Shown: piece after piece, positions 4,101-7,615 of the stretch
Numbering within the stretch: position 1 is the stretch's first letter
How the letters are laid out: each line of letters starts with the position of its first letter
Virus record (IMG/VR): IMGVR_UViG_3300027708_000251
Span: 1 to 27,404 of that record
Origin: a virus
Strand: one strand, 5' to 3'
DNA: 27,404 bases
Made by a program: the position numbers and the translations under genes
The notes under the pieces: model-generated
Told to the model about the DNA's origin: nothing
The model's input: only the letters and a program-made list of their open reading frames with translations
The model's database searches: none

Positions 4101-4125
4101 AAAGGGAGCTTCGGCTCCCTTTTTT
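4101..4125 (+). terminator. Rho-independent terminator with UUCG loop, shared by converging units
   Basis: AAAGGGAGC (4101-4109), loop TTCG (4110-4113) and GCTCCCTTT (4114-4122) form a perfect 9-bp hairpin that runs into T residues to 4125. It ends the gp32 transcript. Read leftwards, the hairpin has loop CGAA and a broken T run (TTTCCCTT), so it may also weakly end the minus-strand unit, whose last stop codon is 4124-4126. Confidence 0.9.
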
Positions 4126-6061
4126 ATATGTATATCATTTTTCCATCAAAATCCATATACGCATGTTTCAGTCCTGCTCTGAAATTGCCAATCCATTCAG
4201 GCGTAGCTCTTGTGTCTGTTTCTCTTTGTTGAGGCGGAGCTTCAACATTTTGTTGAGTAGGACTTGGTTGAGCAGCTGGCTGTGGAGCTGGAGTTTCTTT
4301 TTGGGTTTCTCTTGTAACAGCAGCCTGATCAATGCCTCTTGTTCTTGATCTTGATTGGTCTAGGTATGGATTATTTGGTTGCATTGAAGCTGTTGAAGAC
4401 CCTTGTAATCCTCCTAAAAGATTTTCAATTGCTGGAATTAATATACCAGCAAGGCCACCAATACCAGCTCCTTGTCTACCACCTATCATACCGCCCAGTG
4501 CAGCATAAGGATTCATCATCCCCATTCTAGGATCTTGTTGTGGGGTATATCCTCTTTGTTGTGGCTGTTCTGGTTCTTCTCTGGCAGCACTCATTCCTCT
4601 ACTAGGACCTGGACCTGGACCAGGTGTTTCTCCTCCAGGAGCTCCACCAGTAGCTTCTCTGAGCCATCCTGCAGCATTTTTACCTGCCCCACCAGCACCC
4701 CATATAGCCTGACTTCCGAACCCGACGTGCATTCTGGCACCATCACTATCCATATATCCTTCACCTGCACCAATACCAGTAGCTCCTGCGGCTGATGCAG
4801 CCATAACGAACTTTTTGAATATAGGCAAATCTTCGGAATTCTTTGGTGTTAGTTTTTTTTCTCCGGAGTAGATATCAAGATCAGCTGCCATACCTTTATC
4901 GTGTCTGGTTGAACCTGTTCTTTGGCCACCTTCTGTTTGTGCTGGCTGACCGCCAGATTTAACCTTTACATCAACTCCTGCTTCTCTTGCTGCCTTTTCA
5001 AGAACAGCTAGAAGTTCTGGGCTGATTGGCAGTTTTCTTATGCCAGCTTCTTTCATTTGATCTTGTGAAACTTTTCCACCATCAGTTTTTATTGGAGTTT
5101 CAGTTTGCTGATTTTGCATTTCGCCACCTTGTTTTGTGGCGTCAGCTGATACACCACGTGTAGGCGAAGATACAGCTGTATTATTTTTAGAATTTTTTCT
5201 TTCTAATTCTCTCATCCATAAATCTTGATATTCTTTCATACTATATTTGTTGTTCTTTTGTTCTTTATCATTCAAATAGCCCTTTGGACCACCATACCAT
5301 TCTCTTGGCACCCAGCTTACATCGCCATTATGTCTTTTAAGAATATCTGATATATATTTGTCTGCAACAGCATCCTGAATTGCAGGAGGAGCGTCTTTTG
5401 CGCGATTGTATTCTGTGCCAATACTAAATTGTTTAGTTAATCCTTTCCAGGTTGTATCAATAAATTGATACGCCCCAGAAGCAGTATTTGGTGGTTTTTG
5501 CTCTGCTTTATAATTGTTTGTAGATTCTCTTTGTTTTATAACTTCTAAAATTGTTTTATTTTCTACATTAGCCAAAGGTGTTTCATTGTTTGATGGAGAT
5601 ACTGGTTTTGCATCATCTCCTTCTGATTTTTGACCCATAATAAGGGCTATGCCAGCTGCTGATACTCCCATGCCAGTAAGAAGATTACTTGCTAGACTTG
5701 CGCCCTTTCCACCATTACTACTTTTAACAGCACTTTCTTTAATTAACATTTTTAATGTTTTGAGTATATCGTTTTGGACAGAAATCGATTGCTGTAAGAG
5801 ACTATTTGCTTTATCTATTTTCTTGGTATTTTGTTGAGTCTGTTCTTCAATGTTTTCAACATTTGCTGTGAGTTGTTTTATCTGTCCTTTTTGAGAAGAA
5901 AAAAGAGAACCTAAATTTTTATTGATTATTGATACATTTCCATTATTATCATTAGCAGCTTTTTTGAATGATCCTTTCTCTGCTGGCGCATTGACAGGCT
6001 GTGTTTTATCTGCTTGTTTATTCTTCTTAAATAATGAAAATGGATTAAATTTTATTGGCAT
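4124..6061 (-). CDS. Virion-associated bifunctional peptidoglycan hydrolase, 645 aa, possible tape measure
   Basis: Domains in order: charged N-terminus; coiled coil about 49-110; one hydrophobic Gly/Ala segment 126-142; lysozyme-like transglycosylase domain about 168-290 with QRES (E179 the likely catalytic acid), SGAYQF (195-200) and EWYGG; M15-type metallopeptidase domain about 341-470 with GSTRHDKGMAADLD (H387, D394) and GEGYMDSDGARMHVGFG (E434, H445) as zinc and catalytic residues; Pro/Gly-rich linker; glycine-rich hydrophobic stretch; C-terminal DFDGKMIYI. It should cut both glycan strands and peptide stems when the tail penetrates the wall. AAAGG lies before ATG 6061, two bases after the gp26-extension stop. 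Being directly downstream of a chaperone-like frameshift gene, with coiled coil and membrane segment, it could be or replace the tape measure; that is inference. Confidence 0.82.
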   Translation of the reverse strand: MPIKFNPFSLFKKNKQADKTQPVNAPAEKGSFKKAANDNNGNVSIINKNLGSLFSSQKGQIKQLTANVENIEEQTQQNTKKIDKANSLLQQSISVQNDILKTLKMLIKESAVKSSNGGKGASLASNLLTGMGVSAAGIALIMGQKSEGDDAKPVSPSNNETPLANVENKTILEVIKQRESTNNYKAEQKPPNTASGAYQFIDTTWKGLTKQFSIGTEYNRAKDAPPAIQDAVADKYISDILKRHNGDVSWVPREWYGGPKGYLNDKEQKNNKYSMKEYQDLWMRELERKNSKNNTAVSSPTRGVSADATKQGGEMQNQQTETPIKTDGGKVSQDQMKEAGIRKLPISPELLAVLEKAAREAGVDVKVKSGGQPAQTEGGQRTGSTRHDKGMAADLDIYSGEKKLTPKNSEDLPIFKKFVMAASAAGATGIGAGEGYMDSDGARMHVGFGSQAIWGAGGAGKNAAGWLREATGGAPGGETPGPGPGPSRGMSAAREEPEQPQQRGYTPQQDPRMGMMNPYAALGGMIGGRQGAGIGGLAGILIPAIENLLGGLQGSSTASMQPNNPYLDQSRSRTRGIDQAAVTRETQKETPAPQPAAQPSPTQQNVEAPPQQRETDTRATPEWIGNFRAGLKHAYMDFDGKMIYI

Positions 6062-6063
6062 CT

Positions 6064-6249
6064 TTAACCTTTATTCTTTTGTTTTTCTTCTTCTAGTTTT
6101 CTTAAATGAACTATCAAAAATTCAACATATATGTCCCTCTCAAAAGGGATTAGGTTTTCAATTTCAGTAATCGAATATTTGTGATGCTGAACCATAGAAA
6201 AAATAGTAGAAAAGTAATTCTCTAAAGAGTTATGATTCAGCGCCAGGAA
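6064..6249 (-). CDS. -1 frame extension of gp26 (61 residues), probably reached by frameshifting
   Basis: This frame is open from a TGA just upstream of an 8-T run to TAA 6066-6064. It overlaps the end of gp26 and encodes FLALNHNSLENYFSTIFSMV followed by QHHKYSITEIENLIPFERDI and a Lys/Glu-rich end. The only internal ATG (6195-6193, giving 43 aa) has no ribosome-binding site, so entry by a -1 frameshift at TTTTTTT (6255-6249) is favoured. The fusion would be 295 aa. The block YSITEIENLIPFERDIYV looks conserved and resembles the small acidic helical extension found in tail-assembly chaperone pairs. An independently translated 43-aa protein is the alternative. Confidence 0.55.
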   Translation of the reverse strand, partial: FLALNHNSLENYFSTIFSMVQHHKYSITEIENLIPFERDIYVEFLIVHLRKLEEEKQKNKG

Positions 6250-6950
6250 AAAAAATCATTTAACGAGCTCAAAATTATTTCTCTATCGTTTCCTAAAGAA
6301 TTCTTGTACTTAATTTTATGCTCTATTTTGGGGACACTCAAAAGAAATTTCTGAATATCTTCGAATACCTTCAAATTCATATTCTCTAGGAACTCACTCA
6401 TTTCTTCTTTACTGTGGTTTGAAGGTTCGAATATCTCATCGTCATCATAAATTTTATCGATACATCTAAGAATCAATTCAAACATGTAATTATCTGTTAA
6501 TGATAGAAATTCTTTGTCTTCATATAGTAAAGCTGATGGATAATTCATCACAATTCCTGATTTTTCGCCAATTTTTATGTTATTACTGACTCTTTCAGGA
6601 ATTTTTACTTCAATTTCATTCAAATCGATGTCAAAATCGTAAACTTTTTCGTCTTCATAGTCTTTATATGAAACTTTTACGATATTATTTACAGAAAACG
6701 CTCTTAATTTTAGAAAAATGTATTCGAGATCGAAAAGTGCAATTTTATCAAGATTCAATCCCTTATCTACACAACAATTATTAACAATTTGTTTAATTGC
6801 TGACAAAATATCAGAATCATTTTCACTTTCTTTGGCCATAAGAAGTAGCTTTTCTTCTTTTACCAAAAATGGTCTAAATTTTATATTTTTATTTAACGAA
6901 GGCACCTTAATATTGTACATTGGTTGATCGATTTTAGGCAAGCCAGACAT
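6237..6950 (-). CDS. 26: gp26-like baseplate hub / tail assembly protein (T4_baseplate family), 237 aa
   Basis: The start is ATG 6950 after GGAG in ATTATGGAGATATGTT. The N-terminal IKFRPFLVKEEKLLLMAKES, then AIKQIVNNC and LDKIALFDLEYIFLKLRA, matches the pattern of the T4_baseplate family (PF12322), which includes gp26. T4 gp26 is a hub component needed for hub assembly; relatives in other myoviruses look like tail-assembly chaperones. Length is near T4 gp26 (208 aa). Near the 3' end the coding strand has T TTT TTT in the reading frame (6255-6249), followed by SWR and TGA, and a -1 frame continues open for 61 codons. The gene lies between the tube-fold protein and the hydrolase, as expected for a chaperone placed next to a tape-measure-like gene. 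Confidence 0.8.
   Translation of the reverse strand: MSGLPKIDQPMYNIKVPSLNKNIKFRPFLVKEEKLLLMAKESENDSDILSAIKQIVNNCCVDKGLNLDKIALFDLEYIFLKLRAFSVNNIVKVSYKDYEDEKVYDFDIDLNEIEVKIPERVSNNIKIGEKSGIVMNYPSALLYEDKEFLSLTDNYMFELILRCIDKIYDDDEIFEPSNHSKEEMSEFLENMNLKVFEDIQKFLLSVPKIEHKIKYKNSLGNDREIILSSLNDFFSWR
6249..6255 (-). other. Putative -1 ribosomal frameshift site T TTT TTT
   Basis: The minus strand has eight consecutive T residues (6255-6248). In the gp26 frame they read GAT TTT TTT TCC, i.e. a heptamer X XXY YYZ with both tRNAs able to re-pair after a -1 slip. The -1 frame is open for 61 codons beyond it, while the zero frame stops after three more codons. Confidence 0.55.
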
Positions 6951-6976: not shown

Positions 6977-7615
6977 TTAAAATACTCTTATTGGTGTTTC
7001 CAATACAGAACTTACAATTGTATAATCAGTATAAGCAATGGCAACGTTGATCTTAATCATATTACCAGTATCGCCCCATGCTAATGGTACCTCACCTATA
7101 GCTGTTGGGAAAGCTTCGTAGAGGTTTATTCTTTGAACTGTATTACCTTCTTGGTCATACATTACGATTTGCATAATTGTAGAATAATTTGATTTGTATT
7201 CTGATAGATAAGTGGGTATTCTATTAACCTCACCAAACCCAGAACTTTCTGTTCCGGTAAATTCGTATATCGACCTTACCCAATTATACCAATATTGCCA
7301 AACTACTGCTTGATCGTCTGATAGTATAGAAAAATGTATTTCATTGAATTGTGCATTGAAAGGTTGTTTCTGAGTTGGTCCAGCACCATATCGACTAACA
7401 TCAGCACTAGCCAAAGAAATTCCAGGCGCTCTAACTTGATCGATTCTAAAGGTTTGTAGGTCAGTAATTTCTTTCAGTTCTGATAAGCTGCCATTGTTGT
7501 TTAACATATTACCAAACATAATAGGTGGTGGTTGTATAAACACCTCAAACTGATTGGCTTTAAGATAACCATAGTCTTCTATGTTTGCTTTGAAATCGTT
7601 AATATTAAATGGCAT
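6977..7615 (-). CDS. Tail-tube-fold protein, probably gp54-like tube initiator (or gp19-like), 212 aa
   Basis: The protein has ANQFEVFIQPPP near the start, then FRIDQVRAPGISLASADVSRY, a middle block with VVWQYWYNWVRSIYEF, and a C-terminal INLYEAFPTAIGEVPLAWGD followed by IKINVAIAYTDY. The last block parallels T4 gp19 (LWPTNVGELQLDWD ... FEVTFALDYWE), so the tube fold is well supported. gp19, gp48 and gp54 share this fold. Position among baseplate genes rather than beside a sheath gene, and gp48 lying just across the divergent promoter, favour the gp54-like tube-initiator role; a tail tube paralogue is the alternative. ATG 7615 follows TTAGG. It lies 8 bases after the upstream gene's stop codon. 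Confidence 0.65.
   Translation of the reverse strand: MPFNINDFKANIEDYGYLKANQFEVFIQPPPIMFGNMLNNNGSLSELKEITDLQTFRIDQVRAPGISLASADVSRYGAGPTQKQPFNAQFNEIHFSILSDDQAVVWQYWYNWVRSIYEFTGTESSGFGEVNRIPTYLSEYKSNYSTIMQIVMYDQEGNTVQRINLYEAFPTAIGEVPLAWGDTGNMIKINVAIAYTDYTIVSSVLETPIRVF

Follow-up and report, generated by a model that had tools for sequence, protein, structure and literature searches.

Gene arrangement and the end of the gp26-like gene

We analysed a virus record of 27,404 bases (IMG/VR IMGVR_UViG_3300027708_000251), the whole length of which is called the window here. On its minus strand lies a gp26-like gene (6237..6950) that is predicted to encode a short tail-assembly chaperone of 237 aa (PF12322, E 3e-55; phrog_150, E 1e-57). 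Upstream of it is a tail-tube-like gene (6977..7615, minus strand; phrog_45, E 7e-24; PF23849; PF06841), and its 3′ end is overlapped in the -1 frame by a gp51-like extension of 61 codons and a TAA (6064..6249, minus strand; phrog_634, E 3e-24). Further downstream on the same strand, positions 4124..6061 encode a protein of 645 aa with a transglycosylase-like domain (PF06737, E 4.5e-5), which also has a coiled-coil-like N-terminus, a hydrophobic stretch at about residues 123-141 and a RHDKGMAADLDI stretch. Judged by these features it could be a tape measure or a hub lysozyme, the role of tape measure being possible; BLASTP returned no match to T4 gp29 or to the Cr30 tape measure, the latter represented by its N-terminal part. 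In Caulobacter phage Cr30 the annotated tape measure gene sits two genes past the gp51-like frame.

The gp26-like gene ends with GAT TTT TTT TCC TGG CGC TGA. As the original prediction had noted, this places a slippery heptamer, T TTT TTT, in the gp26 frame (6249..6255, minus strand), three sense codons ahead of the stop, and the heptamer is embedded in a run of eight T (6255-6248). A TGA at 6258-6256 shuts the -1 frame just upstream, so that a shift into this frame is possible only at the T run itself or within the few codons that follow. From 6249 the -1 frame stays open for the 61 codons that had been read there, up to the TAA at 6066-6064, and joining 234 gp26 codons to these 61 extension codons gives the 295 aa that had been expected for a long form. 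The small frame has a single ATG (6195-6193). In the window this is also the sole ATG, GTG or TTG within 22 codons of the slip site, and it has no Shine-Dalgarno-like match (+2.9 kcal/mol), in agreement with the claim that it lacks a ribosome-binding site.

Conservation of the predicted slip site and selection on the -1 frame

The comparison of gp26 homologues for the slippery run and the downstream frame, which had been proposed as a check, came out in favor of a frameshift. In a first set, the best 80 gp26 relatives in IMG/VR picked on gp26 similarity alone, T TTT TTY was found 2-5 codons ahead of the gp26 stop in 80/80, and the -1 extension spanned 53-75 codons in all of them except one (L018), where it was ended by the contig end. 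The second set, also of 80 relatives, had the same heptamer in 77, and the other three, the close relatives L164, L165 and L166, carried G TTT TTT at the end of gp26. An in-frame heptamer of the X XXY YYZ form is thus conserved at this position, and the frameshift layout, as far as the sequences tell, looks conserved throughout these marine T4-like relatives. The same -1 arrangement was found in isolates, namely phages of Synechococcus, Prochlorococcus, Methylophilales, Caulobacter and Stenotrophomonas, as well as Aeromonas phage phiAS5 and Vibrio phage PG216. A +1 reading was ruled out, since the +1 frame closes early, within 0-38 codons, in 93 loci.

The heptamer is replaced by ATT TTC in Kuttervirus-like Ackermannviridae and by CTT TTC in one Vibrio phage, with a homologous -1 extension in both cases. 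In the Kuttervirus-like loci (L004 and L094-L111) gp26 ends with GAA/GAG ATT TTC ATT TAA, and as the -1 frame opens just 10-22 nt ahead of the stop, a shift must fall there; this slip site resembles the T7 gene 10 type.

Homopolymer runs are prone to error, and one continuous gene might have been split by a mistake of sequencing or assembly within the run of eight T. We consider this explanation refuted and its remaining probability negligible, as independent contigs and isolate genomes, those with six T included, agree on the same -1 relation between the frames.

The heptamer is not simply the way in which these genes write Phe-Phe. Among 33 gp26 genes that are less than 70% identical to each other, Phe-Phe was always written T TTT TTY at the slip site and in 0/24 cases elsewhere in gp26, the chance expectation from codon use in this test being about 0.45 per gene. 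From the slip site to codon 18, dN/dS was 0.15 in the -1 frame vs. approximately 1.5 in the other two frames, as estimated by simple pooling of related pairs, which indicates purifying selection on the protein ahead of every start codon that could be used. The -1 extension, in which a segment had looked conserved, is a known gene: the protein is homologous to the "baseplate hub assembly catalyst" gp51 of cyanophages (phrog_634), where the gene is already annotated.

In several genomes the annotated gp51 begins at an ATG right after the gp26 stop, and the first 22 codons of the -1 frame include at least one ATG in 105/111 loci. Both observations would suit a separate small gene, translated by coupled re-initiation from an internal ATG, GTG or TTG once the gp26 stop has been reached, with an incidental likeness to a slip site. 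However, the positions of these ATGs are scattered over codons 1-19, and a good Shine-Dalgarno match was found at any early start of the -1 frame in only 6/111 non-redundant loci, compared with 59/110 gp26 starts. Moreover, the low dN/dS applies to protein sequence upstream of the start, and the sole ATG in the window lies in the middle of the domain, inside the RNA stem described below. A separate gene would also leave the conserved heptamer without explanation, and we regard it as very improbable. Overall, the -1 frame is open, homologous and selected, and it is without a well-initiated start of its own, as the frameshift predicts.

Putative stimulatory elements around the slip site

For the sequence 3′ of the slip site in the window, the folding energy is -20.6 kcal/mol (z -5.25). 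The predicted downstream stem has its 5′ arm at 6231..6245 and its 3′ arm at 6182..6196, both on the minus strand; its covarying core, 6241-6232 paired with 6195-6186, begins 7 nt past the heptamer, and the single ATG of the small frame lies in the 3′ arm. We evaluated covariation in 55 relatives, which were selected by clade rather than by pairing. Two-sided changes were observed in 7/12 stem pairs, and the covariation was 0.248, compared with 0.156 in shuffled and at most 0.092 in slid versions. The clearest pair, which changed repeatedly on the tree, joins the first base of extension codon 4 to the third base of codon 19, a synonymous position.

Over all representatives, a Shine-Dalgarno-like element about 6-8 nt upstream has a mean of -4.5 kcal/mol; it is weak in the window, and no clear upstream element of this kind was found in the window or its nearest relatives. 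A strong Shine-Dalgarno-like element 5-6 nt 5′ of the heptamer occurs in many cyanophages, together with a short hairpin 3′ of the heptamer, the hairpins having a mean z of -2.2 over 57 loci. In L027-L093 the short hairpins lie a few nucleotides past the heptamer, in a register that varies by cyanophage subclade (e.g., GGTATGGCTCATGAAAACCTTGAGTCATACT in L050). A candidate stimulator, either a downstream structure or an upstream Shine-Dalgarno-like element, is thus present at the level of sequence features.

A heptamer phased with the reading frame, a spacer of 7 nt and a covarying stem, as seen here, are typical features of ribosomal frameshifting and speak against slippage of RNA polymerase on the T run, which would yield mixed mRNAs with no involvement of the ribosome. 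The eight consecutive T of the window would be compatible with such transcriptional slippage, and T8 occurs in 8/111 loci; however, 65/111 loci have just six T, and a run of six is short for polymerase slippage. We therefore consider transcriptional slippage very improbable and retain the ribosomal frameshift.

We give about even odds to the broader proposal that a single conserved T4-like recoding site has had its stimulator swapped among lineages. The window's marine clade would rely on the covarying stem, which has a 36-nt loop and would also bury the only internal ATG, many cyanophages on the upstream Shine-Dalgarno-like element with a short hairpin, and the Ackermannviridae would use an NTTTTC-type slip site. 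T4 would have replaced the frameshift with a separate gene that encodes the long form in one frame.

Chaperone-like fold of the gp26 model, relation to T4 and known systems

The AlphaFold model of gp26 (pLDDT 93) matched over residues 1-96 with 3fgx (Z 8.0), with 2ob9, the HK97 tail assembly chaperone (Z 7.3), and with YqbN, 3klu (Z 7.1), and a clear gap separated these three from the later rows of the fold search (Z 4.9, then 2.5). We take 3fgx and 3klu to be prophage tail chaperones. The Z values of 7-8, which are moderate and concern the N-terminal 96 residues only, indicate that the modelled short form has a fold like that of the HK97 chaperone, and with the matches to the two other small proteins they lend support to the earlier reading of gp26 as a tail-assembly chaperone. 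Foldseek alone gave no significant match of the gp26 model in the PDB, a profile sequence search of the PDB with gp26 yielded chance-level matches only, and the proteins studied here reached no NCBIfam family at its cut-off. Chaperone folds were not listed for an AlphaFold model of T4-type gp51 (pLDDT 80, 7 sequences), which we do not count as evidence against this reading.

The gp51 of T4 is a single ORF that spans both families, with the gp26 and gp51 parts in one frame. HHalign aligned the predicted 295-aa fusion with it at a probability of 99.2 (E 3.5e-19) over 240 columns that span the junction, so that the reading frame and this alignment together point to short and long predicted proteins with a common N-terminal part. 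T4 gp26 corresponds to the short form alone. Since T4 gp51 covers both parts and T4 gp26 only the short one, T4 makes the two forms from two genes. The protein families are the same as in the window; the difference is that in T4 the two genes lie on opposite strands and gp26 does not end with a T TTT TTY slip site, whereas here there is one locus with a predicted frameshift. By comparison of these sequences, these marine phages most likely make both chaperone forms by frameshifting.

Taken together, the heptamer, the -1 frame, the selection on it, the stem and T4 gp51 strongly support the predicted -1 programmed frameshift joining gp26 to gp51. We put the probability that this frameshift yields short and long tail-assembly chaperones at roughly 0.88, on the basis of sequence and structure models. 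Points against it are that many relatives have an ATG in the -1 frame, which annotators took as the start of gp51, that T4, which is part of the wider group, does without a frameshift, and that the fold matches are moderate and N-terminal only. Most ribosomes would read gp26 to its own stop and produce the 237-aa short form, while a minority would slip back by one base on T TTT TTT, aided by the RNA stem 7 nt downstream, and read on in the gp51 frame to give the 295-aa long form. As with lambda G and GT, the two forms may coat the tape measure protein and deliver tail-tube subunits to it.

The locus resembles lambda G/GT in its short chaperone ORF with a slip site near the 3′ end, in the -1 extension, in the tail-tube-like gene upstream and in the chaperone fold. 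It differs in that gp26 is larger (237 aa) and belongs to the T4_baseplate family, in that the slip site is T TTT TTY, and in that the next gene downstream is only a possible tape measure. T4 gp26 and gp51 are presumably the two genes meant by Vladimirov and colleagues in the 2022 study named below. The G/GT frameshift is conserved among long-tailed phages, with the exception of T4 (2016 review, PMC5009743). According to PMC10885494 and PMC12846349, T4-like tail assembly chaperone genes were identified by Vladimirov, Gautam and Davidson (2022, Virology 566:9-15), and poly-T slip sites in T4-like chaperone genes are described as known. In Vandenendeviridae and Andersonviridae, the available text of PMC12846349 describes a chaperone frameshift with a GTTTTT motif, as in phage Adele. 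There too, a poly-T slip site ends the short chaperone gene and the -1 extension is always open, in other phage families, and that text mentions no covarying stem and no Shine-Dalgarno-like element.

Because the G/GT frameshift and the T4-like chaperones of 2022 were already known, our finding is a well-supported further case, and the idea of a frameshifted T4-like chaperone is not new. What may be new is the covarying stem, the way in which stimulators differ between clades and how broadly the locus was surveyed.

Among the phage records examined, none had gp26 as a joined frameshifted CDS. The gp51-like extension is unannotated in the records of S-BM3 (L002) and Vi01 (L004), and cyanophage "gp51" is usually annotated as a stand-alone small gene. 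Most likely this "gp51" is just the last part of a long chaperone that is made by frameshifting. If so, hundreds of marine T4-like genomes would need changes in their annotation, and the "hub assembly catalyst" gp51 of T4 gains a plain meaning, as the long form of the chaperone, produced there with no frameshift.
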